NCBI GenBank assembly: GCA_013180625.2
Contig: SNVD02009645.1
Span: forward strand, 186,001 to 250,000
DNA: 64,000 bases
DNA from: Boswellia sacra
Lineage: Eukaryota; Streptophyta; Magnoliopsida; Sapindales; Burseraceae
Direction of reading: 5' to 3'
The position numbers were made by a program, and so were the translations under genes. The notes beneath the pieces were generated by a model that was not told the DNA's origin, ran no database searches, and saw only the letters and a program-made list of their open reading frames with translations. This document shows, piece after piece, positions 16,934 through 62,609 of the stretch; position 1 is the stretch's first letter, and each line of letters begins with the position of its first letter.

Positions 16934-16944
16934 CCTTGGGACTC

Positions 16945-37370: not shown

Positions 37371-38781
37371 TGATGCGTTCGAAACTAGCAAGTATACTAG
37401 TCGCACAAGTAATAAAGTGATAAGTAGATATCGTTCCCACGAGGATTGATTCTAATTGAATTTGTTATTTTCCAGCAATAATAAACTAAACAGGGGGGGG
37501 TTTTGTTGATTGATTAACTAAACTTAATACGAAAGCAAATGAAGAATAACACAAAGCAAAGTTAAATGTAGTGAAAAATCAATGAGAGACACTTGGTTAA
37601 GAGTTCATTCTCTGCCACAAGATATGAATTTGTGAATTAACATAGAATTGTAATCCAATTACAGCATTGAAGTTATCAACCGTAGATAACAACAAGCTCT
37701 GTTATCCCAATCTTTCCTTACTTTGTTGTTAAATAAAACAAGCTCTTTATTTAATCTCTATCCATTAAACAACCTAGAACAAGCTCTCTAAGTTTAATTC
37801 AATAGAAGCATTACGATGAGAAAGATAGGTTGATCTAAGCAATAATCACACAAGTTCGGATTATTTAACCTAGGTTGTATTTTCCAATTGCAATCTCTGA
37901 TCACAATTTTGCTACTAATGATTGGAAATTCATGACAATTACGGATCAAGATTTCTAATCTAGCAATAGACAACAACAGATTATATTCAGTTGGCCATTC
38001 CAAATACAATCAGTAAGCAATCATAAGCATTAGATATGGGAAAATACAAGCAACTTCAATTAGAGAATTAGATAACAATTTCTTACACAATCAACTCACA
38101 AAATCCATATCAAGAGCTTTGAAATCACCCTCAACCAATTCAGATTCAGTTACACATGTTTAAGAACGTGGTAAATACAATATAATATGGAGACATTCCA
38201 GAAAATGAAAGGGAAAGGGAAAACTTAGCAAATTTGATGAAATCTCTTAGGATTTGTAGTTCTTCCTCTTTCCAAGCCTTCAATCTCCTTCAAGAACTCT
38301 AAGAGATGAGAGAAATCCAAAGATGCAGCCTCCTCCACGTTCTCCCCTTTTCAAGTTATGAAATAAAACCCTAAAATGTGTTTTATATACTCTGCTACAG
38401 TAACGTGCTACAGTGTCCCGTATTATACATGCTACAGTGATGTGTGGAATTACATTTCTACACTTCTTACACTGTTTTGATTACAACTTTCGGTACACTG
38501 AATGGATTCATAAACCGTATATTTCTCCAAAAAGTTGACTTCGAGAGCTTTTCAACGGTATATGATATGTCATCGGGTTCATTGTATATCAATACAATTA
38601 AATTCGAGAAGATGGTTGACTAGCAGAGGTGGAAATGAAGGGTTTTACTCCATTTTTGTGCAAGTTGCTCCAAAACTCCTACAAACATCAAAACCACACA
38701 AAAACATAAAAATACCAAGGAATATAGCAAAGAAACATGAACAAATTGATATGAAAATGATATATAAATAGACATTTATCA
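37371..38781 (-). repeat. 3' LTR of Athila-like copy A
   Basis: About 1.41 kb. The R-U5 side (first roughly 0.85 kb as written) is almost identical to 45126 onward, whereas the U3 side (about 38220-38781) is clearly different from the matching part of the 5' LTR and closer to the LTRs of copy B. Confidence 0.92.
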
Positions 38782-38798
38782 AATTCCCCCACACTTAG
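38782..38798 (-). other. Polypurine tract of copy A
   Basis: Read on the minus strand, AAGTGTGGGGGAATT lies directly before the 3' LTR, where plus-strand DNA synthesis starts. The copy B equivalent is AAGTGTGAGGGAATT at about 61121-61135. Confidence 0.85.
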
Positions 38799-40756
38799 AC
38801 TTTGCTAGTCCTCGAGCAACTACGACAATATGAAATAAAACTAAATCGAAACAGAATCAACAAAAAATTAAAACACACAAATGCTTCATCTTGCAAATAG
38901 GCCTCAAAGATTGTACTAAATTATAACCCAAGGAAAACTTCAAAATAATGCACTTGATCAAGAATCTCATTACAAAGATTAGTTTCGATCTACTTCAATT
39001 CCTCCAGTGTGTGTATGTAGAGCCATTCTCACCTAATCATTTGTAACCCGGATGAGTTTATGCATAAAAATGAATCATATTTAAAGTGAAGATGTGCGTA
39101 TAAATGAACTCCATAGGCTTGCTTTTCAAGTCACTCTCCACTAATGTAGACATGCACAACACCAAGGATCAAGTAAGGCTTTATTAAGCTTGTAACGTTT
39201 GGCTTGGGTGAAAGTATGATAAAGGATAATAATTTGGCTCAAATCACCCACAAACACATAAATCATTCAAGACTATGTAGAGCTCAACCCTATAACACAA
39301 ATTTATTTTAATTCACCAGGTTACTCCCTCAAACTTATTTAGAACACTCAATCTTTTTTTTTTTTACAGAAAACAAAAGAAAACTACACCCCCACACTTT
39401 GTTGTTTCATTCTTTTTAAGAACACTGAAGGGTATAGATCTCTTATTCTTCTTCTTTGTTCTTTTTTTCTTTTTTTTCTTTTTTTTATTACACTTCCCCT
39501 CCCCCACACTTAAACAACACATTGTCCTCGATGTGTAAGTATGTGGACGATAGGTACAGATTGGCTTTTTTTTTTCTGTTTTTCTTTTTTTCTTTTCCAA
39601 ACACAATGGAACTCACTTGTATTGCTCTGACAGTCCCAACCTCCTCTACTTCCCAAAACAAGAACATAGCTCAAAATTTAATTGTGAATGATCTACATGC
39701 TCATAGGTAAGGGATAAACTGTTTGGAACAAATTCATTTAAGGTTAAGAAATCTTTTAGTGAGTTAACAAAGAAAAAGGCTTACAGAGGCTCAAAGGGGT
39801 AACTAAGGATCAATTTCTGTCAAGGTTGGCTATTAAGGCTCAAACGGCCCAAAGATGGCCTAAATCATTTCCCCAATGTTACACAGTCTAGGATTTCGCC
39901 TCGAGTGACCATCAAACAAGTTCTAGAATTCATTGAAATCTGAAGAACCATTTAAATTACATAAACTTTCTCTAAGTGAACAAATAACTCAGTGATAATA
40001 GCTCAGTGCTCAATGTTGCGCAAGGAATCAAAAGCAAAGCGAAAACCAATAAACATTTCAAGCACACAGATCCATGCATCATTTATCATTTCCCAAGAGT
40101 TATTCTTAATTCAATCATTATCTTATCATCGACCCACAAAATGCAAGAAAAGAGGTACGTGGCGTTGTTACACCTGAGTCAAGATTGTATATTTCGACAA
40201 TCCTTAGGACCAGTAGCCCGCAGACTTAAGGTTTCCAGCCTATATACCTTTATTATGAAAGAACAAAACAAGAAACAAGACACTTCAAACAACATGAAAT
40301 AAACAAACTACAGATTTATTGAGAGAGAATGCGTTTCAAGAGTTAAGAAAAACCCATATTCTGCCATTCTCAGGTTTTTCCACAATGTTTTTTTTTTTTT
40401 TCGAATTGAAACTGATAAAGACAAAAACACACAACAACTCGAAATTACATAAAACTAAACTTACTCAGAAAATAATAAAGTTCAACAAGTCAGCAAACAA
40501 AAACAAGTTAGTTAGAATGGTCTAAAAAGTTTAGAAGTTAGCCTCCTTATTCAGCCATTATGGATTGAAGAGATCCAGAATGCGTTTCAAGAGAACTTGA
40601 ACTTTTTAAGCCACCACTCTAAAAGCCATGATTAGGAAGTATTACCTGGGGTGAAAGAAATAACTTGAAAAAAACTCAAAAGAAATGACATGAAAATCTC
40701 AAATAAACACACTAAAAAGAAAGTAAACAAAAGCGAAGTAAACCAATAGATAGAGA
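38799..40756 (-). other. Copy A untranslated region between LOG and the 3' LTR
   Basis: About 2 kb with no reading frame of note, colinear with 59267-61120 in copy B. It contains poly-pyrimidine runs (T-rich near 39350 and 39456-39490) and the phrase equivalent to GGCGAAATCCTAGACTGTG. Long 3' untranslated regions of this kind are usual in Athila-type elements. Confidence 0.7.
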
Positions 40757-41390
40757 TTACAGATGGAGCGTTAAATCTAGTCTACGCCTTTTATTGCCTT
40801 CTCCAAACCAATCTATCCGAGCCGTTGTTGGATCAGGCGAATAGATGAATTCTTGGAGTTTATCAATTAACTCCCCTGCAGTTGAAGCTGTAACCAAGAT
40901 TTGCCTCGTCGACGGTGAGATGAAGTTTTTTTCTACTGCTTGATCAAGAAAAGACAACAAACCATCAAAATATTTATTGACATTTAACAAACCAATGGGT
41001 TTCCGATGGATGTTTAGCTGTGCCCAAGAGGTGATTTGAAATATCTCCTCTAATGTACCATAACCATCAGGCAAAGCTATAAATGCATCAGATTTAATGA
41101 CCATATGTGCAATACCTGTCTCTTATACACATCTAGATGTGTATAAGAGACAGCGTACAGCTAATGGTTTAGGGATAATGCCGAGAACTTTGCTTCCTCC
41201 TAAGGATGCAGCTGTCGACACACACCCCCATTAACCCAAGACTACCCCCTCCGTAAATCAAATGAATACCCCTCGCAGCTAATGTCCTACCAAGATCAAG
41301 AGCTGCTGTTGTAAACTCTCCATCTTTACCAAATTGCGATCCACAACATACGCATATATTTTGGAGTCGCCGAATTGGTGTTTTCTCCAT
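40757..41390 (-). pseudogene. Captured LOG-type cytokinin riboside 5'-monophosphate phosphoribohydrolase, copy A
   Basis: LOG enzymes release active cytokinin free base from nucleotide precursors in the cytosol. The ATG at 41390 opens MEKTPIRRLQNICVCCGSQF, followed by IHLIYGGGSLGLMG; a one-base insertion in the G run after this shifts the frame. The 3' half, from the GTATTGCACATATGG stretch at 41115 onward, reads [20 protein letters not shown], then [17 protein letters not shown], and ends RRLDLTLHL at 40757. The PGGYGTLEE signature has one Gly changed to Asp here (PDGYGTLEE). 56 bp coding for the region with the conserved MHER Arg are replaced by an adapter sequence (41116-41153), an assembly fault. 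No introns, although plant LOG genes have several. Copy B lets the true structure be inferred. Confidence 0.9.
41116..41153. other. Tn5 mosaic-end palindrome = Nextera mate-pair junction adapter (assembly artefact)
   Basis: CTGTCTCTTATACACATCT is followed immediately by its perfect reverse complement, 38 bp in all. The 19-bp half is the engineered Tn5 transposase mosaic end and the two joined halves are the Illumina Nextera mate-pair junction sequence. It stands where copy B has 56 bp of ordinary LOG coding sequence (58852-58907). I read it as an untrimmed adapter built into the consensus and not as genomic DNA. Confidence 0.96.
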
Positions 41391-41549
41391 TTCTACAAGT
41401 GCTCTAACCTTGTGTAAGACAATGATACACGTTAGGTAATATGCTTTTCAGGTGTAAGACAGGTTATAATAATGACATTTGAAAATATGAAGAATGGATA
41501 TATACACACGTAAAACTCTCAAATTTGACACATGGGGACATAATTTCGG

Positions 41550-41800
41550 TGGGGGTTGCTCGACGCAGATTTATCGCCCTAAGATTTGAAAAAATGAGAT
41601 ATGCTTTCGACGGGTTTGACAAAACCTACACACTTGTCTCCCACATGAAGCATGAAAAATGGACATACACTTTCGGCAGGGTTTGACAAAACTGCCACAC
41701 TTGTCTCCCACGTGAAGCATGAAAAGTAGAGATATACTTTCGGCGGAGGTTGACAAAACCTTCACACTTGTCTCCCACGTGTGCTTATGTCATGGGGTAG
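41550..41800 (-). repeat. 67-bp tandem repeats 5' of LOG, copy A
   Basis: About three units with CTCCCACGTGAAGCATGAAAA and TTTCGGCGGGG/AGGTTGACAAAAC cores. Two units keep a CACGTG (G-box) core; one has CACATG. Equivalent of 58226-58440 in copy B. Confidence 0.85.
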
Positions 41801-41999
41801 TCATATGGTTTGTCAAAAAGAAACTTGAAATTAAAACAAACAAAATCAACAAACAACAACAACACAAAACAACATTGATAATCAGATCAAACGAAACAAG
41901 AAAGCAACAAAATCCGACAACAACTATACATATTCAAATATACAAGTAGTTGTGATTGTGGCTCACATCTTCCTCTGGTTTTACGTCCAGTAACGGCTG

Positions 42000-42561
42000 A
42001 AACGCTTCTATGAGTCGGGGATTTGCTTCCCATCCAGTTTTCTTATAAACTGGCAAACAGGGTCGTTTTTAGTCAGATTCCCTAGACTATAACACTGCAA
42101 TTCATCACGAAATTGTGTCCATAGATTAAGCAATTCACGCTGAACAAGTCCACAAGAATGTGACTCCAGAGTTAATAAAACATTATCCAGCGACTCATTA
42201 CTCAGACCATTCTTAATAAATGACAGTTTATCTTCTCTATTTCTAAACACAAAACCTAATGAACGACAAGTCTGGTTACAATTCCATCTAGCACATTTAT
42301 AACATACTTGTAACCTTTTCGCTCTTCGCCTCTTGGCGTAGTAGCTTTTTCCTAGACCAGCATGTATTTTGCGAGATTAATGTCCGGCTCACCGGACAAT
42401 CTCACCTTGGCTTCGATAAGCCATCGGATATCAGCAGGCACATTTAGGAGCATCAACACCCAAAGTCTAGTCATTCGTACTTTATAAATTTTAAACACAG
42501 CATTTTGGGGAAGTGAAGGGAAATATTTACGAAGGTTCGATAGAAAGATATCGGCATCCAT
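42000..42561 (-). pseudogene. Cys-cluster ORF of unknown function, copy A
   Basis: Starts at 42561 (MDADIFLSNLRKYFPSLPQN) and, after a one-base deletion near 42355, continues in another frame as far as the stop after GKQIPDS near 42008. The central part carries CYKCARWNCNQTC, a compact C-X2-C-X4-C-X3-C cluster next to a Lys/Arg-rich stretch. I do not recognise the family. The same ORF is in copy B. Confidence 0.7.
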
Positions 42562-43004
42562 TAAAGAGGAGAAAAGGAGAGATATTACCGATAATGCTAT
42601 TGAGTTTGTTCTTCTCCCAGATATGCACGATTCAAACCTTCAAGCAATGACTTCGGCTCCCGTTTGGATGTTTCCTTAAGCTGCTGCACAAATGAATTCG
42701 AAGTACGAAATAATCAAATTAAACAAAAGGAAGGAAAAGAAAAGAGCAGAAACGAAACTAAAGACACATAAAAGAGATAACAACACAATAGCAAACAAAA
42801 GTCAAAAACAAGTAAAAAATATAAAAACAAATAAGACAGATGGCAAAGAGAGATAAACCTGATCAATTTGATGGCCTATGAAAGGAATCTCCTCGAGACA
42901 CAAAAATCGATCATTATTACCTTATTTTATTTTTCTTTTCTTTTCTTTTATTTATTTTACAAAAACATTGGGTTGCCTCCCAATAAGTGCTTGGTTTAAC
43001 GTCC

Positions 43005-45022
43005 TCAGCCCGACGTTAGTTCCATCATGGGAGGGTCCAATCTCTGTTGTGCTTCTCTAGTGGGCTTGGATCCTTTTTCCAACAAGAATTGTTGCATGCA
43101 TATGGCTGGGTCTTGGATGTTAGCAATCGTCCACCCAATAGTTATTTTGTGATCTCTAAGTACTTGGACGAGTTTATCTTCTTGTAGTGGTGCAAGGCCC
43201 ATTTCTATTATAACTGGCAAAGAATCATTCTCACCCAAAAACACATGCCTCAAATAATCTGGAAGTAGCTTAAGCTCCAAGGTATTGGCTTTCATCATAG
43301 AAGGAAGAAGTTTCTCATTAGATAAAGGCAATTCAATGTACGAAACATCATACCTGTTTGTGATTATAGCTATAGTCTCATCTAAGCATGCCATAGCTTC
43401 CTCCATTTCTTTGGACACTTGTTTCAACCTTCTTGGTTCTTTGGAATTTTCTGTCCCTATGTGCTCACTAATAGCCATTTTCAATCCATCCTTGCGAGTT
43501 AACTCAAAACATTGTTGTGGTAAAGAATCAATAATGTTAACTGCAAAAACAGAATGCAAGTCACTAAGGTACCTCATTACCTCGAAAATATTGAAACGGA
43601 TCACTTTGCCATCAAACTCCATGGTGAAAGTGCCATCATGAACATCAATCTTGGTTCTAGCATTTTTCAAGGATGGTCTCCCAAAAAGAATCGGAGTTGG
43701 ATTAGGAGATATCTCATCCTCTATTTTAAGGACATAGAAGTCTGCTGGGAAAACCAATTGATTCACCTGCACAAGCACATCTTCCACAACTCTTTTGTGA
43801 TATGCATTAAAATGATCAGCAAACTGAATGGTAATACCAGTTTTCGCAAAAGGTCCAAGATTTAAAGAAGCATAAATAGAATATGACATGACATTAATAG
43901 ATGCTCCTAAATCTAACATAGCTCTTTCAAACTTGGTTTTACCAATGGTGCATGGAATGGTGAACGTACCTGGATCTTTGCATTTCGGAGGAATTTTTCT
44001 TTGCAATACAGCTGAAACATTTTCTCCCACACTTACTTTCTCATTCCCTTTTAACTTTCTCTTGTTGGTGCATAACTCCTTGAGACATTTTGTATAACGA
44101 GGTACTTGCTCGATAAAATCCAGAAGTGGTACATTTACCTCGATTTTGCAAAAAGTTTCTAGGATTTTCTGTTCTTGTTCCTCCTTCTTCGATTTTGCAA
44201 ATCTACTAGAAAAAAGTGGAGGAGTAACATATGAAGGAATGGGAGTTATAGGATTTACCTGAGAAGTCAATGTTTTGTTCATGGTGGATGTGGTGTCATC
44301 TCCTTCATCAGTTTGTGATTTTCCCAGTAAGACATCTAATTGCTCTCCACTTTGCAAAGTTATCGCACTAGCAGTCTCGCTTGGATTGATCACCGTTTGA
44401 GAAGTTAATTTTTCTGAGTCTTGGCCCTCGAATTTGCTCATGCTAGTAGCCAATTGTCCCATTTGATTTGCCAGGTTTTGGATACTTGTCCCAATTTCCT
44501 GCTGGAATTGCATTGTGTTAGTAGCAAGTGCATTAACAATATCTTGGAGTGACGTACCTGAGTTTTCTGGAGCTGGTTGTGGCATTAGTGGTGGTTGCAT
44601 TTGAAATGGTTGCTGCACTCTAGGTTGATTAAAACCTCGTAGTTGATTTGGTGTGGCATTTGGGACGATTGGTTGATGATTCCAGTAACTGAAATTAGGG
44701 TGATCTTCCCATCCAGCATTGTAAGTGTTAGAGAAGGGATCATACAATTGCCTTGTTTGTCTTGGAAATCCATCCATGGCATTGGCTTGTTCCATATCTC
44801 CTTGCAAAGTTGGATACATGTCGATTGGATGCTCCATGGTAGAATATACCTCACATGCATAAGATTTCTGCATATGTCCTACAGCCATGTTTTCCACAAG
44901 AGAAATTAACTCAGAAAGTTGTTGTTCAATGTTCGGAGTGCTTACCTTATTTACTCTCCATGGTAGTTGTGGCTCAAATCCGATGCTGAATTGTTGGAAG
45001 TTTACTGCCATGTCGCCTAAAC
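43005..45022 (-). pseudogene. Athila-like gag (truncated) and protease, copy A
   Basis: A long open frame begins in the leader and reads the element's gag from DMAVNFQQFSIGFE (about 45013). The N-terminal capsid part seen in copy B is missing. The zinc-knuckle-like box has lost two Cys (CEVYSTMEHPIDMYP against CGVCSTTDHPTDMCP in copy B). Then come a Pro/Gln-rich linker, SKKEEQEQKILETFCKIEVN, the retropepsin site LDLGASINVM, ILFGRPSLKNARTKIDVHDG, and the pre-RT sequence LEKGSKPTREAQQRLDPPMM before a stop. The frame stays open for some 670 codons, which is notable for a defective copy. Confidence 0.87.
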
Positions 45023-45100
45023 ACAAACAATCAGAAAAGAAAAACAAAAACAAATACGAATCAACAATGAAAACAAAATAATAAATCGATTAGAAAATCA

Positions 45101-45119
45101 ATCCCCGGCAACGGCGCCA
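45101..45119 (-). other. tRNA-Asp primer-binding site, copy A
   Basis: Read on the minus strand as TGGCGCCGTTGCCGGGGAT, the exact complement of the 3' end of plant tRNA-Asp(GUC) including CCA. It is typical of Athila and related elements. Copy B has one change (GTTGTCGGGG). Confidence 0.93.
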
Positions 45120-45125
45120 AAAACT

Positions 45126-46540
45126 TGATGCGTTCGAAACTAGCAAGTATACTAGTCGCACAAGTAATAAAGTGATAAGTAGATATCGTTCCCACAAGGA
45201 TTGATTCTAATTGAATTTGTTATTTTCCAACAATAATAAACTAAACAGGGGGGGTTTTGTTGATTGATTAACTAAACTTAATACGAAAGCAAATGAAGAA
45301 TAACACAAAGCAAAGTTAAATGGAGTGAAAAATCAATGAGAGACACTTGGTTAAGAGTTCATTCTCTGCCACAAGATATGAATTTGTGAATTAACATAGA
45401 ATTGTAATCCAATTACAGCATTGAAGTTATCAACCGTAGATAACAACAAGCTCTGTTATCCCAATCTTTCCTTACTTTGTTGTTAAATAAAACAAGCTCT
45501 TTATTTAATCTCTATCCATTAAACAACCTAGAACAAGCTCTCTAAGTTTAATTCAATGGAAGCATTACGATGAGAAAGATAGGTTGATCTAAGCAATAAT
45601 CACACAAGTTCAGATTATTTAACCTAGGTTGTATTTTCCAATTGCAATCTATGATTACAATTTTGCTACTAATGATTGGAAATTCATGACAATTACGGAT
45701 CAAGATTTCTAATCTAGCAATAGACAACAGCAGATTATATTCAGTTGGCCATTCCAAATACAATCAGTAAGCAATCATAAGTATTAGATATGGGAAAATA
45801 CAAGCAACTTCAATTAGAGAATTGGATAACAATTTCTTATACAATCAACTCACAAAATCCATATCAAGGGCTTTGAAATCACCCTCAACCAATTCAGATT
45901 CAGTTACACATGTTTAAGAACGTGGTAAATACAATACAACATGGAGACATTCAAGAAAATGAAAGGGAAGGGAAAAACTTAGCAAATTTGATGTAATTCT
46001 CTTTGGATTGTAGTTCTTCCTCTTTCCAAGCTTCCTTTCTCCTTCAAGAACTCCAGGAGATGAAAGAATTCCAGAGCTGCAGCCTCCACCACATTCTCCC
46101 CTCTTTAAGTTATCAAAATAAAACCCTAAAATGTGTTTATATACTCTGCTACAGTAACTTGCTACAGTGTCCCCGTATTTAATAATATGCTATAGTGCTA
46201 TATGAAATTACAAATATACACTTCTCATACCATTTTTATCATAACTTTTCGTACACGATATAAATTTGTGAACCGTAAATTTCTCCAGAAAATAGACTTC
46301 GAGAGCTTTTCAATGGTATATAGCATGTTATCCGGTTAATTGTATATCGATACAATCAACTTCGAGAAATTGGTTGATTAGTAGAGGTGAAAATGAAGGG
46401 TTTTACTCCAATTTTGTGCAAGTTCCTCCAAAACTCCTACAAACATCAAAAACCAAACAAAAATATAAAAAGACCAAGGAATATAGCAAAGAAACATGGA
46501 CAAATTGATATGAAAGTAATACATAAATAGACATCTATCA
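45126..46540 (-). repeat. 5' LTR of Athila-like copy A (mosaic)
   Basis: About 1.41 kb. R-U5 (45126 to about 45960) is nearly identical to the 3' LTR. The U3 side (about 45990-46540) differs from it by many substitutions and indels. See the finding on mosaic LTRs. Confidence 0.92.
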
Positions 46541-48300
46541 GTCGCAAGCTCAATGACACAGAGCGAGTTACATAGTTCAAGAAAAGAAGCTGACAACCAT
46601 TATCCATTACGTAAGGGTTTGGCATCACTTCTTACTTGGCTTACACTTTGTCAAAAAGACCGATAATGCGACAACGAGCTACTTTCAAATACAAAAGAAG
46701 CTAAGCTCTAAGCAAGCTCTATGGCAAGACTTCTTCACCAAATTTGACTATCGGCTAGAGTACAAACTAGGTAAGGCAAACCTTGTGGCCGATGCCCTAA
46801 GTTGCAAAATAGAACTTGCAACCTTGAGCCTAAGTTGACAAGAAAGTATGCTTATTGATTGCATTAATGTAGGCCTAGAATATAATCCCATATCTAAGAA
46901 CTTATTAAAGTTGGCTAGTGAGGGGAAGACACAGCGCTTTTGGCTCGATGAAGGCCTATTCCTCACAGCAGAAAATCGCTTATTCGTGCCAAGACATGGG
47001 AATTTGCAAAAGGAGATCATTAAAAAGTGTCACCACTCTAAGTAGGCTAGTCACTCAGGTATGGCATGAACCCTTGAACTCATGCAACATTCCTACTTTT
47101 GGCCTCAAATGCGAGAAGATATAGAGGGCTATGTGCAAACTTGTCATGTCTGTCAACACAACAAGATCGAGCACTAATATCCAATAGGGTTGTTAAAACT
47201 CTTGCCAATTCCAGAAAGGCCATGAAAAAATGTGTCAATAGATTTTATCGTGGCCTTGCCAAAATCAAAGGGATACCAAAGCATTATGGTGGTCGTTAAT
47301 CGGTTTAGCAAAAATGTCACCTTCATACCTATTTTCACGGATTGTACCGTGGATAAAGCCGCTCAAGAGTTCCTCAAGCATGTAGTAAAACTTGGGAGAG
47401 TTCCACAGAATATTGTGAGTAATCACAATCGTCGCTTCACTAGATGATTTTAGAGAGAACTTTGCAAACTGTTAGGGACTTACTTGAGCTTCTAAACCAG
47501 CTTCTATCCTTAAAACCGACAAACAAATCGAGTGCATCAATTGCCTACTTAAGTTATTCCTAAGGCATTACGTGAGCATTCATCAACTAGAAAGCTGCTG
47601 GACGTTACCCAATTCTTATACAACCTCCTAAGAAGTAAGGCAACAAGCAAGAGTCTATTCAAGATCGTGATTGGACAACAACCTATGACTCCACATGCCA
47701 TTGCCTCTACTTATGGAGGAAAGAGCCTAGCGACCTATAAGCTCACAAGAGAGTGGCATGAGCAAGATGATATTGCGCGAATGTGCTTGGACAAGGCCAT
47801 TAAAAGGATGAAGAAATGAGCGGACATAAGGAGAAGACACCTTATATTTCAAGGTGGAGACTTGGTAACTGTCAAGCTACTACCCTAGCAATTTAAGTCA
47901 CTACACAAAGTGCACGAGGGGTTAGTGTAAAAATTCAAAAGTCCCTACCTGATAATCAAGCAAATAGGTGAAGTCTTTTGCCTAGTTCAACTGCCCCCTA
48001 GCCTCAATATCCACCCAATCTTCCATGTAAGCTTACTCAAGCCCTATCATAAGGATAAGGAAGATCTAAGCAAAAGCAAGTCCAAGAGAGTGCCTACAGC
48101 TATTGTCACCATATTCGATAAGGATGTGGAATACATCCTTGCGGTTCGAGTGATACGAACGAGAGGAGTTCTATCACACGTCTAGTACTTAGTAAATCAG
48201 ACAGTAAGGCTAGCTGGGAGCGTAAAGACACCTTGTGGCAATTTGGTGAGCACATCCAACGACACAAGGACGAGAGTGCATCGAGGACGTCGCGAGATTA
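46541..48300 (+). pseudogene. Chromovirus RNase H end, integrase and chromodomain
   Basis: Resumes YKS|RKLNDTE after copy A. Integrase parts: the zinc finger with HH…TCHVCQQHK (46990-47165), the core MSIDFIVALPKSKGYQSIMV with its Asp (about 47235), and the region IVSNHNRRFTR where the canonical SDRD Asp has decayed to Asn. A C-terminal stretch NIHPIFHVSLLKPYHKDKE is followed by a chromodomain-like YILAVRVIRTRGVLSHV near 48130-48190. Multiple stops. Confidence 0.85.
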
Positions 48301-52713: not shown

Positions 52714-52718
52714 AAATA

Positions 52719-54132
52719 TGATAGGTGTCTATTTATATATCATTTTCATACTAATTCTTCCATGTTTATTTGCTATATTCCTTGATATTTTTATGTTTTT
52801 GTGTGGTTTTGATATTTGTAAGAGTTTTGGAGTAACTTGCACAAAAATGGAGTAAAACCCTTCATTTTCACCTCTGCTAGTCAACCATCTTCACGGATTT
52901 AATTGTATTGATATACAATGAATCCGATGACATGTTATATACCGTTGGAAAGCTCTCGAAGTCTATTTTCTAGAGAAATTTACGGTTCATGAATCCATTC
53001 AGTGTACCGAAAGTTATAATCAAAACAGTGTGAGAAGTGTAGAAATGTAATTCCACAAATCACTGTAGCATGTATAATACGGGACACTGTAGCAGGTTAC
53101 TGTAGCAGAGTATTTAAACACATTTTAGGGTTTTATTTTGATAACTTGAAGAGGGGAGAACGTGGTAGAGGCTGCAACTCTGGAATTCTTTCATCTCTTG
53201 GAGTTCTTGAAGGAGAAAGGAAGCTTGGAAAGAGGAAGAACTACAATCCAAAGAGAATTACATCAAATTTGCTAAGTTTTTCCCTTCCCTTTCATTTTCT
53301 GGAATGTCTCCATGTTGTATTGTATTTACCATTCTTAAATATGTGTAACTAAATCTGAATTGGTTGAGGGTGATTTCAAAGCCCTTGATATGGTTTTTGT
53401 GAATTGATTGTGCAAGGAATTGTTATCCAATTCTCTAATTGAAGTTGCTTGTATTTTCCCATGTTTAATGCTTATGATTGCTTGCTGGATTGTATTTGGA
53501 ATGGCCAACTGAATATAATCTGGATATTGTCTATTGCTAGACTAGAAATCTTGATCCGTAATTGTCTTGAATTTCTAATCCTTAGTAGCAAAATTGTGAT
53601 CAGAGATTGCAATTGGAGAATACAACCTAAGTTAAATAATCCGAGCTTGTGTGTTTATTGCTTAGATCAACCTATCTTTCTTATCATAATGCATCCATTG
53701 AATTAAATTTAGAGAGCTTGTTCTAGGTTGTTTAATGGATAGAGATTAAATAAAGAGCCTGTTTTATTTAACAACAAAGTAAGGAAAGATTGGGATAACA
53801 GAGCTTGTTGTTATCTACGGTTGATAATTTCAATGGTGTAATTGGATGACAATTCTATGATTAATTCGCAAATCCATATCTTGTGGCAGAGAATGATCCC
53901 TTAACCAGATTTTCGTCAGTGATTAATTCTCACTTCAATTAAGTTAGCATTGTGTTATTCTTTATTTGCATTAATATTTCATCTAGTTAATCAATCAACA
54001 AAACCCCCCCATTTATTCTATTTTCGCTTTCGAATAACAAATTCAATTAGAATCAATCCTCGTGGGAACGATATCTTACTCATCACTTTATTACTTGTGC
54101 GACTAGTATACTTGCTAGTTTCGAACGCATCA
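52719..54132 (+). repeat. 5' LTR of Athila-like copy B
   Basis: About 1.41 kb, TGATAGGTGTC...CGAACGCATCA. Contains a short open frame (53449-53706) whose counterpart is open in all four LTRs of this family in the window. Confidence 0.93.
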
Positions 54133-54138
54133 AGTTTT

Positions 54139-54157
54139 TGGCGCCGTTGTCGGGGAT
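54139..54157 (+). other. tRNA-Asp primer-binding site, copy B
   Basis: TGGCGCCGTTGTCGGGGAT differs from the exact tRNA-Asp complement (present in copy A) by a single C-to-T. Confidence 0.9.
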
Positions 54158-54238
54158 TGATTTTCTAATCAATTTGTTATTCTGTTTTTACTACTGATTC
54201 TTGATTTTTATTTTCTGATTGTTTGTGTTTAGGTTTTT

Positions 54239-55735
54239 ATGTCCGAGGAAGAAGCGAATCAACGACTTAAGCAAATCAAGGAGTTTCTCGAATCCTCGAA
54301 TTTAAGATTAAATCGGTCAATTTCAACTCCACCTCCAGAATTTGACCTTGCACGACATACTTCCCTTCCATCTTCTTGCAGTTTAATCAAATCTGAATCG
54401 GAAGTAATGGCGATGCAAAACAATCAGACTCTTAAGGAGTTAGCGTCTCCAATTATTGATCAACAACCGTTGTGCATAAATCTCAACCTTGAGGTAGAAT
54501 TTGAGCTTAAATCTGGACTAATTCGTCTCTTGCCTACATTTCATGGTTTTGCAGGAGAGGATCCTATCAAATACACTCAGAGAATTTCATGTGGTATGCT
54601 CAAGTATGAAGCCAACTGGCGTGTCTGAGGAGCCAATAAAATTGAGAGCTTTCCCATTCTCATTAGCAGATTCGGCGAAAGATTGGCTATACTATCTACC
54701 ATCGGGTACCAACACCACGTGGAATGAGATAAGTAAACTCTTTTTAGAGAAATACTTTCCCACTTCGAAAGCTATAAACATTAGAAAAGATATTAGTGGC
54801 ATTCGACACAGAAACACAATGGATAATCACAGCCCCACCCCCCCGCCTTTAAAAAAAAAAAAAAAAAAAATGGAATATTGGGAGAGATTTTAAAGGCTAT
54901 GGTGTTAGCTGTCCAAACCATCAAATTAGTGATGACTCCCTAATTCAATATTCTATGAGGTCTCCTACCAATGGAAAAGAGTATCATTGATGCTGCTAGT
55001 GGTGGAGCACTAGTTAATAAAACATCGAAAGTTGCAAGGCATTTGATTAGCGACATGGCAGCGAACTCCCAACAATTCAGCAGCCAATTTGAGTCACAAC
55101 TGCTAAGGAGAGTAAATGAGGTAAGTACTCCGAACATTGAACAACAACTTTATGAACTTACCTCTCTTGTAAAAAAAATGGCTGTAGGACATATGCAGCA
55201 ATCTTATGTATGTGGAGTGTGTTCTACCACGGACCATCCTACCGACATGTGTCCAACTTTACAAGAAGGAGATACGGAACAGGCCAATGCCATGGGTGGA
55301 TTTCTAGGACAACCAAGCTAAAGTTACAGTAATCATCAACCAATCGCCCCAAATGCCATACCAAATCGGCCACCAGGTTTCAATCAACCAAGAGTGCAGC
55401 AACCATTTCAAATGCAACCACAGCCAGCACTACAACTAGCTCTACAAAACTCAGGTATGGCTCTCCAGGACATTGTTAAAGCAATTGCTACTGACACACT
55501 GCAATTTCAGTAGGAAACTAGGGCAAGTATCCAAAACCTGGAAAATCAAATGGGACAATTGGCTACTAACATGAGCAAATTCGAGAGTCAAAGCTTAGAA
55601 AAATTACCTTCTCAGACAGTGATCAATCCAGGAGAGAATGCTAGTGCAATAACTTTGAGAAGTGGAAAGCAATTACAAGTCCCACAAAAAAAGTCACAAA
55701 CTAATGAAGGGATGACACCACTTCCACCATGAACA
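54239..55735 (+). pseudogene. Athila-like gag, copy B, with frameshifts and stops
   Basis: The ATG at 54239 gives MSEEEANQRLKQIKEFLESS. The capsid-like region GFAGEDPIKYTQ is split by a frameshift near 54560-54625, then LRAFPFSLADSAKDWLYYLP and SKLFLEKYFPTSKAINIRK, the standard retrotransposon-gag domain. After a low-complexity C/A run near 54830-54870 it continues as MEKSIIDAASGGALVNKTSK to a zinc knuckle CGVCSTTDHPTDMC (C-X2-C-X4-H-X4-C) that is intact here. A Pro/Gln-rich tail follows. Stops at about 54626, 54890, 55320 and 55513 make it non-functional. Confidence 0.88.
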
Positions 55736-57005
55736 AAACATCATCTTCTAAGGTAGATCTTAAAACTCAAATTCCTTCTTATGTTACTCCTCCACCATTT
55801 CCTAGCAGATTTGCAAAATCAAAGAAGGAGGAACAAGAACAGGAAATCTTGGAAACTTTTCGCAAGATTGAGGTAAATATACTACTTTTGGATGCTATTA
55901 AGCAACTGCCTCGTTATGCAAAATTTCTCAAGGAGTTATGCACTAACAAGAGAAAGTTGAAGGGAAATGAGAAAGTAAGTGTGGGGGAAAATGTTTCAGC
56001 TGTACTACAAAGAAAAATTCCTCCAAAATGCAAAGATCCAGGTACGTTTACCATTCCATGCACCATTGGTAAACCAAGTTTGAAAGGGCTATGTTAGATT
56101 TAGGAGCATCTATTAATGTCATGCCATATTCCATTTATGCTTCTTTAAATCTTGGACCTCTTGCGAAAACTGGTATTACCATTCAACTTGCTGATCGTTC
56201 TAATGCATATCCCAAGGGAGTTGTGGAAGATGTGCTTATGCAGGTGAATCAATTGGTTTTCCCCGCAGACTTCTATGTTCTTGAAATGGAGGATGAGACA
56301 TCTCCTAATCCAACACCGATTCTTTTAGGGAGACCATTCCTGAAAACTGCTCGAACTAAGATTGATGTTCATGATGGCACTCTCACCATGGAGTTTGATG
56401 GCGAGGTGATTCGTTTCAATATTTTTAGGGCAATGAGGTATCCTAGTGACTTGCATTATGTTTTTATAGTTGATGTTATTGATTCTTTGGCACAACAATG
56501 TTTTGAGTTAACTCGCAAGGATGGATTGGATGTAGCTATTAGTAAGCACATAGGGATAGAAAATTTTAAAGGACCACGAAGGTTGATACAAGTGTCCAAA
56601 GAAATGGAGGAAGTTGTGGTAAGCTTAGATGAGACCATAGCTATAACCACAAACAGGTATGATGTTTCGTACATTCAATTTCCTTTATCTAATGAGAAAC
56701 TTCTCTCTTCTGTGATGAAAGCCCATACCTTGGAGCTTAAGCCTCTTCCAGATCATTTGAAACATGGATTCTTGGGTGAGAATGATACTTTGCCAATTAT
56801 AATAGAAATGGGCCTTGCACCAATACAAGAATCGAAACTCGTCCGAGTACTTAGAGATCACAAAACAGCTATTAAGTGGACGATTGCTAACATCCAAGGC
56901 CCAGCCATATGCATGCACCAATTCTTGTTGGAAAAAGGATCCAAGCCCACTAGAGAAGCACAGCGGAGATTGGACCCTCCCATGATGGAACCAACATCGG
57001 GCTGA
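55729..57005 (+). pseudogene. Athila-like protease and pre-RT region, copy B
   Basis: Two overlapping frames (55729-56097 and 56091-57005) separated by one frameshift carry a retropepsin with LDLGASINVMPYSIYASLNL and ILLGRPFLKTARTKIDVHDG. Downstream it reads RVLRDHKTAIKWTIANIQGP and LEKGSKPTREAQRRLDPPMM, the entry to RT in related elements, but then meets TGA. Everything from RT to integrase is missing in both copies, so the family probably amplified as a gag-pro-only derivative. Confidence 0.88.
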
Positions 57006-57446
57006 GGACGTTAAACCAAGCGCTTATTGGGAGGCAACCCAATGTTTTTGCAAAATAAATAAAAAAAAGAAAGAAAAATAAAATAAGGTAATAATGAGCG
57101 ATTTTTGTGTCTCAAGGAGATTCCTTTGTATGCCATCAAATTGATCAGGTTTTATCTCTCTTTGCCATTTGTCTTATTTGTTTTTATATTTTTTTATTTT
57201 GTTTTTGACTTTTTGTTTGCTATTGTGTTGTTATCTCTTTTATGGTCTTTAGTTCGTTTCTGCTATTTTCTTTCCTTCCTTTTGTTTAATTTGATTATTC
57301 CGTACTTCGAATTCATTTGTGCAACAGCTTGAGGAAACATCCAAACGGGAACTGAAGTCATTGCTCAAAGGTTTGAAACGTGCATATCTTGGAGAAAAAC
57401 AAACTCAATAGCCTTATCGGTAATATCTCTCCTTTTCTCCTCTTCA

Positions 57447-58000
57447 ATGGATGTCGATATCTTTCTATCGAACCTTCAAAAATATTTCCCTTCACTTCCT
57501 CAAAATGCTGTGTTTAAAATTTATAAAGTACGGATGACTAGACTTTGGGCGTTGATGCTCCTAAATGTGCCTGCGGATATCCGATGGCTTATTGAAGCCA
57601 AGGTGAGATTTTCAGGTGAGCCTGACATAAATCTCGCAAAATACATGCCTAATCTAGGAAAAAGCTACTACGCCAAGAGGCGAAGAGCGAAAAGGTTACA
57701 AGTATGTTATAAATGTGCTAGATGGAATTGTAACCAGACTTGTCGTTCATTAGGTTTTTCGTCCATGAATAGAGAAGATAAACTTTCATTTATTAAGAAT
57801 GGTTTGAGTAATGAGTCGCTGAATAATGTTTTGTTAACTCTCGAGTCACATTCTTGTAGACTTGTTCAGCGTGAATTGCTTAATCTATGGACACAATTTC
57901 GTGATGAATTGCAGTGTTATAGTCTAGGAATCTGACTAAAAACGACCCTGTTTGCCAGTTTATAAGAAAACTGGATGGGAAGCAAATCCCCGACTCATAG
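57447..58000 (+). pseudogene. Cys-cluster ORF of unknown function, copy B
   Basis: The ATG at 57447 gives MDVDIFLSNLQKYFPSLPQN and stays open to 57935. The central KRRRAKRLQ stretch is followed by CYKCARWNCNQTC and then helical-looking ERELLNLWTQF-type sequence. A one-base deletion near 57929 ends it early; copy A keeps the original frame there to GKQIPDS. In each copy the break is in a different place, so the ancestral frame was about 184 codons. I do not recognise the family; it may be an accessory retroelement gene or a second captured host gene. Confidence 0.72.
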
Positions 58001-58225
58001 AAGGCTTTTCAGCCGTTACTGGACGTAAAACCAGAGGAAGATGTGAGCCACAATCACAACTACTTGTATATTTGAATGTGTGTTGTTATTGTCTAATTTT
58101 TTTTATTGTTTCGTTTGATCTGATTATCAATGTTGTTTTTGTGTTGTTGTTGTTTGTTGATTTTGTTTGTTTTAATTTTCAGTTTTCTTTTTAACAAACC
58201 ATATGACTATCCCATGTCATAAGCA

Positions 58226-58440
58226 CACGTGGAGACAAGTGTGGAGGTTTTGTCAACCTCCGCCGAAAGTATATCTCTACTTTTCATGCTTCACGTGGGA
58301 GACAAGTGTGGCGTTTTTGTCAACCCCCGCCGAAAGTGTATCTCCATTTTCCATGCTTCACGTGGGAGACAAGTGTGTAGGTTTTGTCAAACCCCGCCGA
58401 AAGCATATCTTATTTTTTCAAATCTTGGGGCGACAAATCT
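58226..58440 (+). promoter_or_regulatory. Three 67-bp repeats with G-box (CACGTG) cores upstream of LOG
   Basis: Three head-to-tail units of about 67 bp, each starting (T/A)CACGTGG(G)AGACAAGTGTG and containing TTTTGTCAA(C/A)CCCCGCCGAAAG. Each start carries a perfect CACGTG, the core of plant bZIP/bHLH sites (ABRE/G-box-like). They end about 175 bp before the LOG-like frame. Regulatory use is an inference from position and motif. Confidence 0.6.
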
Positions 58441-58615
58441 GCATCGAGCAACCCCCACCGAAATTATGTCCCCATGTGTCAAATTTGAGAGTTTTACGTG
58501 TGTATATATCCATTCTGCATATTTTCAAATGTCATTTTATAACCTATCTTGCACTTGAATCGCATAATACCTAACGTGCATCATTGTCTTACACAAGTTT
58601 AGAGCACTTGTAGAA

Positions 58616-59266
58616 ATTGAGAAAACACCAATTCGGCGATTCCAAAATATAGGCGTATTTTGTGGATCGCAATTTGGTAAAGATGGAGAGTTTACAACAG
58701 CAGCTCTTGATCTTGGTAGGACATTAGTTGCGAGGGGTATTCATTTGATTAATGGAGGGGGTAGTCTTGGGTTAATGGGGTGTGTGTCGACAGCTGCATC
58801 CTTGGGAGGGAGCAAAGTTCTCGGCATTATCCTTAAACCATTAGCTGTACGAGATATCGTAGGCAACACAATCGGGGAAGAGTTACAGGTCTCTAGCATG
58901 CATGAGCGTATTGCACATATAGTCATTAAATCTGATACATTTATAGCTTTGCCCGGTGGCTATGGTACATTAGAGGAGATATTTCAAATCACCTCTTGGG
59001 TACAGCTAAACATCCATAAAAAACCCATTGGTTTGTTAAATGTCAATAACTTTTTTGATGGTCTGTTGTCTTTTCCTGATCAAGCTGTAGAAAAAAATTT
59101 TATCTCACCATCAGCGAGGCAAATCCTTGTTACAGCTTCAACGGCAGGGGAGTTAATTGACAAACTACAAGACTTCGTCTATTCGCCTGATCCAACAATG
59201 GCTCGGATAAATTGGTTTGGAGAAGGCAACAAAAGGCGTCAACTGGATTTAACCCTCCATCTGTAA
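58616..59266 (+). pseudogene. Captured LOG-type cytokinin riboside 5'-monophosphate phosphoribohydrolase, copy B (open, start codon lost)
   Basis: An uninterrupted frame of 216 codons covering an entire LOG protein, with no introns. The codon at the expected start is ATT, where copy A has ATG. Order: VFCGSQFGKDGEFTTAALDL, GGGSLGLMGCVS, IGEELQVSSMHER (with the Arg of the family motif) and the signature PGGYGTLEE near 58950. Then come [18 protein letters not shown] and the C-terminal LDLTLHL with natural stop at 59264-59266. Oddities: Tyr to Asn just before the GGG loop (LINGGG; copy A has LIYGGG), and the Lys that usually follows MHER is Ile. The next in-frame Met lies within the SLGLMGCVS segment, too late for a whole enzyme. 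Probably inactive unless translation begins at a non-AUG codon. Confidence 0.9.
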
Positions 59267-61120
59267 TCTCTATTTGCTGTTTTGCTTCGTTTTTGTTTAC
59301 TTTCTTTTTAGTGTGTTTATTTGAGATTTTTCATGTCATTTCTTTTGAGTTTTTTTTAGGTTATTTCTTTCATCCCAGGTAATATTTTCTAATCTCGGTT
59401 TTTTAGAGTGGTGGCTTAAAAAGTTCAAGTTCTCTTGAAACGCATTCTGGATCTCTTCAATCCATAATGGCTGAATAAGGAGGCTAACTTCTAAACTTTT
59501 TAGACCCATTCTAACTGACTTGTTTTTGTTTGCTGATTGTTGGACTTTGTTATTTTATGAGTAAGTTTAGTTTTGTGAGTTGTTGTGTGTTTTTGTCTTT
59601 ATCAGTTTCGATTCGAAAAAAAACATTGTGGAAAAACTTGAGAATGGCAGAATATGGGGTTTCCTTAACTCTTGAAACGCATTCTCTCTAAATAAATCTG
59701 TAGTTTGTTTATTTCATGTTGTTTGAAGTGTCTTGTTTCTTGTTTTGTTCTTTCATAATAAAGGTATATAGGCTGGAAACCTTAAGTCTGCAGGCTACTG
59801 GTCCTAAGGATTGTTGAAATATACAATCTTGACTCAGGTGTAACAACGCCACGTACCTCTTTTCTTACATTTTGTGGGTCAATGATAAGACAATGATTGA
59901 ATTAAGAATAACTCTTAGAAAATGATAGATGATGCATGGATCTGTGTGCTTGAAATGTATATTAGTTTTTGCTTTACCTTTGATTCCTTGCACAACATTG
60001 AGCACCAAGCCATTATCACTGAGTTATTTGTTTACTTAGAGAAGGTTTATGTAATTTAAGTGTTTCTTCGGATTTCAATGAATTCTAGAACCTGTTTGAT
60101 GGTCACTCGAGGCGAAATCCTAGACTGTGCAATATTGGGGAAATGATTTAGGCCATCTTTGGACCGTTTGAGCCTTAATAGCCAACCTTGATTGAAATTG
60201 ATCCCTAGTTACCCCTTTGAGCCCTTTATAAGCCTTTTTTTTGTTAACTCACTAAAAAGATTTCTTAACCTCAAATGAATTTTTTTTCTAAACAGTTTGT
60301 CCCTTACCTATGAGCATGTAGATCATTCACGATGACATTTTGAATTATGTTCTGGTTTTGGGAAGTTAGAGGAGGTTGGATTGTGCCATGAGCAATGCAA
60401 GTGAGTTTTATTATGTTTGTAAAAAAAAAGAGAGAAAAAATATATATACTTATCTTCCACGTACTTAAACATTGAGGACAATGTGTTGTTTAAGTGTGGG
60501 GGAGGGGAATTGCAGTTAAAGAAAAAAAAAGAAAAAAAGAAAAAAAAGAAGAAAAAAAAGAAGATCGAGTGTTCTAAATAAGTTTGGGGGAGTAACCTGG
60601 TGAATTGAAATAAAGTTGTGTTATAGGGTTGAGCTCTACATAATCTTGAATGATTTATGTGTTTGTGGGTGATTTGAGCCAAATTATTATCCTTTATCAT
60701 ACCTTCACCCAAGCCAAACGTTACAAGCTTAATAAAGTCCTACTTGATCCTTGGTGTTGTGCATGTCTACATTAGTGGAGAGTGACTTGAAAAGCAGGCC
60801 TATGGAGTTCATTTATACACACATCTTTAATATTAAATATGATTCATTTTTATGCATAAACTCATCCGGGTTACAAGTGATTAGGTGAGAATAGCTCTAC
60901 ACACACACACTTGAGGAATTGAAGTGAAGCGAAACTAATCTTTGAGAAGAAATTCTTGATCAAGTGCATTATTTTGAAGTTTTCCTTGGGTTATAATTAA
61001 TTACAATCTTTGAGACCTATTTGCAAGTTGAAGCATTTGTGTGTTTTAATTTTTCTTTGATTCTGTTTCGGTTTAGTTTTGTTTCATATCATTGTACTTG
61101 CTTGAGGACTAGCAAAGTTT
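59267..61120 (+). other. Copy B untranslated region between LOG and the 3' LTR
   Basis: Colinear with 38799-40756 of copy A. It holds no supported gene. An A-rich AAAAAAAGAAAAAAAG tract lies near 60525-60562, preceded by the polypurine-like TTTAAGTGTGGGGGAGGGG at about 60490-60508, a possible second (central) polypurine tract. Confidence 0.65.
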
Positions 61121-61135
61121 AAGTGTGAGGGAATT
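61121..61135 (+). other. Polypurine tract of copy B
   Basis: AAGTGTGAGGGAATT directly before the 3' LTR. Same position and nearly the same sequence as in copy A. Confidence 0.82.
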
Positions 61136-62548
61136 TGATATGTGTCTATTTATATATCATTTTCATATTAATTCGTCCATGTTTCTTTACTATATTCCTT
61201 AGTATTTTTATTTTTTGTGTGGTTTTGATATTTGTAGGAGTTTTGGAGCAACTTGCACAAAAATGGAGTAAAACCCTTCATTTTCACCTCTGCTAGTCAA
61301 CCATCTTCTCGGATTTAATTGTATTGATATACAATGAACCCGATGACATGTTATATACCGTTGGAAAGCTCTCGAAGTCTATTTTCTGGAGAAATTTACG
61401 GTTTATGAATCCATTCAGTGTACCGAAAGTTGTAATCAAAACAGTGTGAGAAGTGTAGAAATGTAATTCCACAAATCACTGTAGCATGTATAATACGGGA
61501 CACTGTAGCAGGTTACTGTAGCAGAGTATTTAAACATATTTTGGGGTTTTATTTTCATGACTTGAAGAGGGGAGAACGTGGTAGAGGCTGCAACTCTGGA
61601 TTTCTTTCGTTTCTTGGAGTTCTTGAAGGAGAAAGAAAGCTTGGAAAGAGGAAGAAGTACAATTCAAAGAGATTTACATCAAAATTGCTAAGTTTTTCCC
61701 TTCCCTTTCATTTTCTGGAATGTCTCCATGTTGTATTGTATTTACCACGTTCTTAAACATGTGTAACTGAATCTGAATTGGTTGAGGGTGATTTCAAAGC
61801 CCCTGATATGGTTTTTGTGAGTTGATTGTGTAAGAAGTTGTTATCCAATTCTCTAATTGAAGTTGCTTGTATTTTCCCATATCTAATGCTTATGATTGCT
61901 TGCTGATTGTATTTGGAATGGCCAACTGAATATAATCTGGTTGTTGTCTATTGCTAGAGTAGAAATCTTGATCCGTAATTGTCTTGAATTTCTAATCATT
62001 AGTAGCAAAATTGTGATCAGAGATTGCAATTGGAGAATACAACCTAAGTTAAATAATCCGAGCTTGTGTGTTTATTGCTTAGATCAACCTATCTTTCTTA
62101 TCGTAATGCATCCATTGAATTAAATTTAGAGAGCTTGTTCTAGGTTGTTTAATGGATAGAGATTAAATAAAGAGCCTGTTTTGTTTAACAACAAAGTAAG
62201 GAAAGATTGGGATAACAGAGCTTGTTGTTATCTACGGTTGATAATTTCAATGGTGTAATTGGATGACAATTCTATGATTAATTCGCAAATCCATATCTTG
62301 TGGTAGAGAATGATCCCTTAGCCAGATTTCCGTCAGTGATTAATTCTCACTTCAATTAAGTTAGCATTGTGTTATTCTTTATTTGCATTAATATTTCATC
62401 TAGTTAATCAATCAACAAAACCCCCCATTTATTCTGTTTTCGCTTTCGAATAACAAATTTAATTAGAATCAATCCTCGTGGGAACGATATCTTACTCATC
62501 ACTTTATTACTTGTGCGACTAGTATACTTGCTAGTTTCGAACGCATCA
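61136..62548 (+). repeat. 3' LTR of Athila-like copy B
   Basis: About 1.41 kb, TGATATGTGTC...CGAACGCATCA, matching 52719-54132 throughout with scattered substitutions. Confidence 0.93.
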
Positions 62549-62609
62549 AAATACTACTTGATGGTTGATAAATATAAGGAAGATTCTAGACGTTGTTATT
62601 AATAAAGAG

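Follow-up and report, generated by a model that had tools for sequence, protein, structure and literature searches.

Two LTR retrotransposon copies in the window, the whole 64,000-nucleotide stretch of Boswellia sacra DNA analysed here, each carry a LOG-type gene and, upstream of it, a gene resembling the nucleic-acid-binding proteins (NABPs) of plant RNA viruses. We regard these copies, with moderate confidence, as two old non-autonomous Ty3/gypsy insertions in which NABP and LOG were accessory genes under selection while the lineage was active, and this lineage was probably Athila. The anatomy of the copies, their independent insertion, the breadth of the family and the constraint on NABP are shown by the sequence comparisons.

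Anatomy and independent insertion of the two elements

The two copies, referred to as A and B, were delimited together with their retroviral-type parts as follows.

52719..62548 (+), copy B of the LTR element, spanning 9.8 kb, with gag and protease; RT/integrase not found
52714..52718 on the left and 62549-62553 on the right (no strand), target-site duplication (TSD) AAATA of B, the two sides identical
52719..54132 (+), 5' LTR of B, 1414 bases, 96.2% identical to the 3' LTR, K2P 0.0335
54139..54156 (+), primer-binding-site-like TGGCGCCGTTGTCGGGGA, directly after the 5' LTR of B
54522..54893 (+), gag remnant of B, Retrotrans_gag PF03732 at 30.5 bits (cut-off 24.1)
56073..57005 (+), aspartic-protease ORF of B, PF13650 at 22.0 bits, just below the cut-off of 24.3
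61136..62548 (+), 3' LTR of B, 1413 bases, from the LTR comparison
37371..46540 (-), copy A of the LTR element, spanning 9.2 kb in the opposite orientation to B, with LTRs at 45126-46540 and 37371-38781
43005..45089 (-), gag-protease ORF of A, 694 aa, PF13650 at 18 bits, under the cut-off

The LTRs of A were 92.9% identical and its TSD agreed at 4 of 5 bases, and the gag start, which is present in B, is missing from the gag-protease ORF of A. The K2P divergence between LTRs was 0.0335 within B (3.4%), 0.0766 within A (7.7%) and 0.084-0.110 between the copies (8-11%). At a substitution rate of 1.3e-8 per site per year, these values place the insertions at about 1.3 million years ago for B and about 2.9 million years ago for A. 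Thus, the different TSDs and LTR divergences indicate that A and B belong to one family but inserted separately, which agrees with the proposal of the first-pass annotation that LOG was captured before the family spread.

Two other histories were considered and rejected. In one, A and B would be a single duplicated segment, which is contradicted by the TSDs, by the LTR ages and by the sequence similarity between A and B, which ends at the element ends, that is, at the LTRs. In the other, LOG would be a separate, later retrogene insertion marked by a TSD and poly-A, but it occupies the same site with the same flanks in A and B, and neither a TSD of its own nor a poly(A) after it was seen by eye. 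No support for either was found, and we consider both highly improbable.

In the region of copy A, no relative was found of the integrase of L027, a contig described below, or of the RT/integrase at 15539-18666, and in the region of copy B the same queries gave one 38-residue match only (E 0.096). Both copies are therefore read as non-autonomous. The frames at 15539-18666 (-), which encode RT, RNase H and integrase, belong to another LTR element. A weak integrase-like trace at about 47010-48050 (+), with 22-26% identity and E 3e-6 to 2e-8, lies just outside the 5' end of copy A and is perhaps a remnant of a further element.

LTRs, a TSD, a primer-binding site (PBS) of the TGGCGCCGTTGCCGGGGA type and an extra ORF on the 3' side of gag-pol, all seen in the copies, are traits that may point to Athila. 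We take the PBS-like TGGCGCCGTTGTCGGGGA of copy B to be Athila/Tat-type, and a PBS of the TGGCGCCGTTGCCGGGGA type is presumably that of Athila, but common to Tat as well. The designation of A and B as Athila-like is plausible from such motifs and from the integrase of L027, as no RT or integrase was seen in the window copies.

In both copies, some 0.7 kb separate the end of the NABP-like ORF from the LOG downstream of it, and the interval contains the following repeats.

58231..58431 (+), three 67-nt tandem repeats with a degenerate fourth extending to about 58500, between NABP and LOG

A matching 67-nt repeat stretch is present in copy A at about 41508-41780. The interval 58200-58520 of copy B folded better than its shuffles (z -3.4), and no Rfam family matched at E<=1 within 57000-61200. 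The stretch is a candidate RNA element. In 57270-57460, a pyrimidine-rich tract that ends in CAG resembles a splice acceptor; it is found in both copies, some 120 bases ahead of the first codon of NABP.

The LOG-type gene and its relatives

The LOG-type genes of the two copies lie in sense with gag-protease and before the 3' LTR.

58616..59266 (+), LOG-type frame of copy B, with ATT at the ATG position and matches to PF03641, TIGR00730 and Arabidopsis
40757..41390 (-), LOG-type gene of copy A, with the ATG present and the frame broken
41116..41153 (no strand), two back-to-back 19-base Tn5 mosaic ends inside the LOG of copy A

The frame of copy B, 58616-59266 (+), lies inside an open stretch of 58568-59266; as previously annotated, its 216 codons are all open and its ATG reads ATT, with no other in-frame Met until 53 codons downstream. 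It matched PF03641 with 121.3 bits (cut-off 27) and TIGR00730 with 158.1 bits, above the cut-off, and aligned without gaps over 194 residues of Arabidopsis At2g37210 (E 1.4e-61). Both PGGxGTxxE and the Arg of MHxR, which we take to be LOG motifs, are present. The NCBI equivalog NF058542 was not reached (97.1 bits versus a cut-off of 300); this is a model for bacterial and archaeal annotation, and the database relatives P0007, P0054 and P0091 fall short of it too.

The earlier description of a complete LOG in both copies holds for its presence, its sense orientation and its position between the protease and the 3' LTR, but not for its completeness, since B is without the ATG and A is broken. 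The ATG and the frameshift reported for copy A were both found, but a part of the damage has another explanation. The 38 bases at 41116-41153 replace part of the LOG sequence, and the two 19-base mosaic ends are presumably a Nextera mate-pair junction adaptor; adaptor bases were thus left in the assembly, and part of the apparent damage of this LOG is an artefact. An intact LOG from start to stop is absent from both A and B, and hence the window copies show the cargo and encode no working LOG.

Protein database searches with LOG gave 1770 matches, 120 of them listed. Genes of Reevesia pubescens accounted for 44 of the 120 and bore 17 different chromosome prefixes, and a cluster from Pterospermum among the listed matches had 327 members; by their numbers, these look like mobile copies. 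A length of 216-217 aa was found in 88 of the 120, and the listed LOG and NABP relatives were 47-68% identical to the window proteins. By regular expression, PGGxGTxxE was present in 103/120 and the MHxR Arg in 105/120. The window LOG resembles plant LOGs (Arabidopsis At2g37210 and At5g11950; PDB 2a33 and 1ydh) in length and PGGxGTxxE and differs from the Arabidopsis LOGs in being intronless; furthermore, the motif Arg is followed by M, I or L in most listed relatives (97 of the 120) and by K in both Arabidopsis LOGs. One of the matches, P0001 of Xanthoceras (381 aa), consists of two LOG-like halves in tandem.

With regard to origin, the window LOG scored 211 and 181 bits against the Arabidopsis LOGs and 138 against the best bacterial chain, and a bacterial origin is disfavoured by these scores. 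Host plant LOG genes presumably have introns, and the capture of a spliced mRNA suggested by the first-pass annotation agrees with an intronless LOG that resembles plant LOGs more than bacterial ones. In a tree of 123 proteins, the window LOG was placed amid proteins of Malvales, Sapindales and Populus, apart from the Arabidopsis and bacterial LOGs, on a long branch and inside no starred set; this tree, with a midpoint root, two host and two bacterial LOGs, alone decides neither the origin, nor the host subfamily, nor the number of captures. A viral contig collection gave no relatives with the single LOG sequence as the query and 26 loci with 24-44% identity with the LOG alignment. One IMG/VR contig (37350 nt; L001, 10001-10537) has a LOG-like protein with 36% identity to the window LOG.

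The most identical LOG among the matches listed was P0007, equalled by P0003, which is on a 1348-nt contig and is nearer by tree path. P0007 and the nearest listed NABP, P0121, are both from contigs of 8723 nt, and a second LOG-NABP pair is from contigs of 2128 nt; further shared sizes of 905 and 1018 are likely due to chance. In a rough simulation with 60 LOG rows (58 distinct sizes) and 119 NABP rows, from which chromosome-scale rows were left out except P0001 and in which P0197 was without a size, the chance of two shared sizes above 2 kb was about 0.008. Thus, judging from sizes alone, the NABP-LOG pairing probably exists elsewhere.

The first-pass annotation had held that transduction of LOG by such an element is not commonly described. 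Steinbauerova et al., in Genetica in 2011, reportedly found two Athila-like elements with a LOGL4-like extra ORF at the 3' side. LOG, as the YgdH domain, is published in consensuses of Ty3/gypsy LTR elements of Citrus and Populus, with Steinbauerova 2011 cited (PMC9289625). Therefore, the finding as first stated is known in kind. The elements described here are like those of Citrus and Populus in being of Ty3/gypsy type with a LOG-type extra ORF (PMC9289625), and unlike them in having NABP ahead of LOG and in lacking pol. Section 12 of PMC9289625 does not mention a second accessory gene beside LOG, and the words 'carla' and 'NABP' are absent from the main text of that paper.

The NABP-like gene and its relatives

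The NABP-like genes of the two copies are located as follows.

57447..57935 (+), NABP-like ORF of copy B, matching Viral_NABP and Carla_C4, ending ~20 residues short of the proteins related to it
42008..42561 (-), NABP-like gene of copy A, in two frames, broken about one third of the way in

An intact NABP is encoded by neither window copy. The NABP of copy B matched Viral_NABP over 112 residues with 42.5 bits (cut-off 23, E 1e-10) and Carla_C4 with 25.4 bits (cut-off 20.9). All 21 NABP members of alignment A1 matched both families at E<=0.01, whereas five shuffles and one reversal of the window NABP matched neither Pfam family at E<=1. A profile search gave 783 proteins at E<=1, of which 120 were listed; the listed matches carry the precomputed annotation PF01623, many with PF05515 as well, and those from named plants (n=5) are of Xanthoceras, Populus x canadensis, P. 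alba, Acer and Rhamnella. When four of the named-plant proteins were rescanned, P0157 was above both cut-offs and P0153 was also above both, for Viral_NABP by 0.1 bit, whereas P0189 was above the Carla_C4 cut-off only and P0204 above none. Among the 116 aligned NABPs, the length was exactly 182 aa in 69, the four-Cys motif CX2CX4CX3C was found by regular expression in 98 and a basic NLS-like motif, by a strict pattern, in 80.

An earlier structure prediction of NABP (pLDDT 60) was too weak for a fold search, and that of P0121 was of modest confidence (pLDDT 71.5, pTM 0.34). A Foldseek search of BFVD with the P0121 model gave nothing significant (best E 0.39); of the top nine matches, all with E 0.39 or worse, seven were named as RNA silencing suppressors or NABPs, and these presumably belong to flexiviruses. 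The PDB search with NABP gave three chance-level lectin matches only, and the viral contig collection searched with the NABP alignment gave no relatives.

It might be argued that the window holds a known capture of LOG by an Athila element, of the Citrus and Populus type, and that the NABP match is a generic resemblance between basic zinc-finger proteins. The LOG elements already in print, the lack of a significant Foldseek match and the two rescanned proteins below the Viral_NABP cut-off, one of them below both cut-offs, favour this reading. Against it stand the score of the window NABP over 112 residues, the agreement of all 21 members of A1 with both families when all six scrambled controls match neither, and the flexivirus NABPs that head the fold list, even at E 0.39 or worse. 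We consider it unlikely on this balance.

The element gene is like the NABPs of carlaviruses, allexiviruses and mandariviruses in having a basic stretch followed by a four-Cys motif, with significant profile matches (Viral_NABP, Carla_C4). It is unlike them in residing in a plant LTR element and not in a (+)RNA virus, in the length of about 182 aa in its relatives and in the shorter spacing of CX2CX4CX3C, the cysteine spacing of carlavirus cysteine-rich proteins (CRPs) being longer. Such viral CRPs act as suppressors of RNA silencing, the carlavirus CRP CVB p12 is a transcription factor that causes hyperplasia, and the mutual similarity among viral CRPs is low (PMC12172455). The direction of transfer could also have been the reverse, with NABP arising in plant retroelements from which flexiviruses acquired it. 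The low mutual similarity of the viral proteins (PMC12172455) is in its favour, and so are the size and diversity of the plant family (783 matches at E<=1, 120 of them listed) and its good internal conservation; we judge such a transfer to be quite unlikely.

Further information on the position of NABP came from a search with its alignment among contigs of prokaryote genomes, which gave a single locus, L027 (DAIEQH010000041.1). This 3330-nt contig is binned with a Candidatus Nomurabacteria genome and is likely plant contamination of a public MAG. One of its ORFs encodes an integrase with PF00665 (60.3 bits) and Integrase_H2C2 PF17921 (48.0 bits), a combination of rve and H2C2 that is presumably of Ty3/gypsy type; no RT is annotated in the 3330 nt of the contig. 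An intact 182-aa NABP follows directly after the integrase ORF in the same direction, passing the Viral_NABP cut-off with 34.2 bits and narrowly missing that of Carla_C4 (19.8 versus 20.9). No LOG was found in the 986 nt behind this NABP, the one match being of 13 residues (E 0.032). At the spacing seen in the window, with about 0.7 kb from NABP to LOG, a LOG should begin within L027. Past the first 110 nt or so after NABP, the matches between L027 and B are short and not collinear, so that they place no LOG boundary. The arrangement thus indicates that NABP is located downstream of pol in an element of Ty3/gypsy type, where it can be present without LOG. Judging from this single contig, NABP is probably the older passenger, to which LOG was added later.

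No description of NABP within a retrotransposon came up in literature searches, in which subscription papers were little covered, and word searches of PMC9289625 and PMC7264820 gave no mention of NABP in LTR elements. Hence, NABP in LTR elements and its pairing with LOG seem to be the newer part of the finding. Two reports describe related situations. The Gypsy elements of Phalaenopsis with AlkB are similar in that an LTR element has an RNA-acting extra gene of a kind known in flexiviruses (PMC9289625); unlike here, the gene is a different one and its activity was shown in vitro. The betaflexivirus replicase in cucumber is likewise a flexivirus-related gene in plant DNA (PMC3136472), and it lies near a retrotransposon-like sequence, whereas the gene described here is inside the element and was propagated with it.

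Selection on the accessory genes and their possible roles

To assess constraint over a long time, the NABP of copy B was compared with that of L027 over 158 codons, resulting in 63% amino acid identity, a dN of 0.306 and a ratio of 0.17 with a dS of 1.83, which is near saturation. The 3' piece of the NABP of copy A gave a dN/dS of 0.27 against L027, and its 5' piece was saturated and gave no ratio. Between A and B, the NG86 ratios were 0.37 for LOG (197 codons), 0.26 for NABP (161 codons), 0.61 for the protease ORF (310 codons), 0.22 for the gag-protease piece (129 codons) and 0.85 for an arbitrary frame with 10 stops. Fisher tests on the A-B counts, which ignore the excess of transitions, gave P 0.0013 for LOG and P 0.0009 for NABP.

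In a stricter test of A against B, the mutation type and the C-context were kept; its P values are uncorrected for the several regions. With this test, 28 nonsynonymous changes were observed versus 33.8 expected for LOG (P=0.041), 14 versus 18.8 for NABP (P=0.030) and 21 versus 30.0 for the gag-protease piece (P=0.002), and the protease ORF showed no constraint (62 versus 63.7, P=0.39, ratio 0.92). The shifted frames of these four regions gave P 0.40 to 0.98, and the three frames of a non-coding control P 0.16, 0.53 and 0.41. Taken together, the codon comparisons point to weak purifying selection on LOG and NABP between A and B, with a marginal signal for LOG. Constraint on NABP over a long time is well supported by the alignments, and that on LOG is likely but not proven. 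Beyond A and B, the evidence for constraint on LOG is the intactness of its relatives in a protein database, a source in which open frames are favoured.

The competing view is that LOG, and perhaps NABP, was swept in once and copied passively by machinery acting in trans, being useless to the element and the plant. Consistent with this, both window copies are broken, the selection test for LOG is marginal, and the A-B identity of LOG (90.2%, adaptor region included) is below that of the nearby non-coding spacers (94-95%). However, NABP shows a ratio of 0.17 across a near-saturated synonymous distance, the lengths are kept (182 aa in 69/116 NABPs and 216-217 aa in 88/120 listed LOGs) at 47-68% identity, and the catalytic motifs are mostly retained. 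Passive carriage is somewhat unlikely in our estimation.

We return to the reading in which the two accessory genes were selected. What we infer here covers the capture route, the order of events, the constraint on LOG beyond A and B and the function of both genes. Such an element would retain its LTRs, gag and protease without pol, with NABP and LOG in sense from the protease to the 3' LTR; NABP would be a nucleic-acid-binding zinc-finger protein of the RNA-virus type (NABP/CRP) and LOG would be of the plant type. LOG may have joined in a sub-lineage, most simply via a spliced host mRNA. Selection would have kept both genes during the activity of the lineage, and A and B would have decayed after landing. 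By binding RNA, acting in the nucleus or both, NABP may blunt the RNA silencing of element transcripts in the manner of carlavirus CRPs, and it may protect or traffic the element RNA against silencing. LOG would release free cytokinin in the cells that express it, and this would favour cell division and a meristem-like condition that may allow the element to be expressed and to reach the gametes. Being placed after NABP on a long RNA, LOG would need splicing or internal initiation. In the broadest form of this reading, which we put forward tentatively as a possibility, a widespread plant LTR lineage would carry a silencing suppressor of the RNA-virus type under long-term purifying selection, and one branch, having added LOG, would carry within a genome-resident element a host-manipulation module of two genes, one giving protection from RNA silencing and the other driving cell division.

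This reading would also call for caution, in that plant annotations of LOG and of 'viral' genes, such as many of the Reevesia LOGs, may be element-borne. If NABP is conserved in plant LTR elements, it would offer a concrete, testable answer to how some retrotransposons cope with host RNA silencing, and, if true, plant RNA viruses and retroelements would be linked through gene exchange. The pairing of NABP with LOG suggests that such elements may change the hormone state of the cells that they need.
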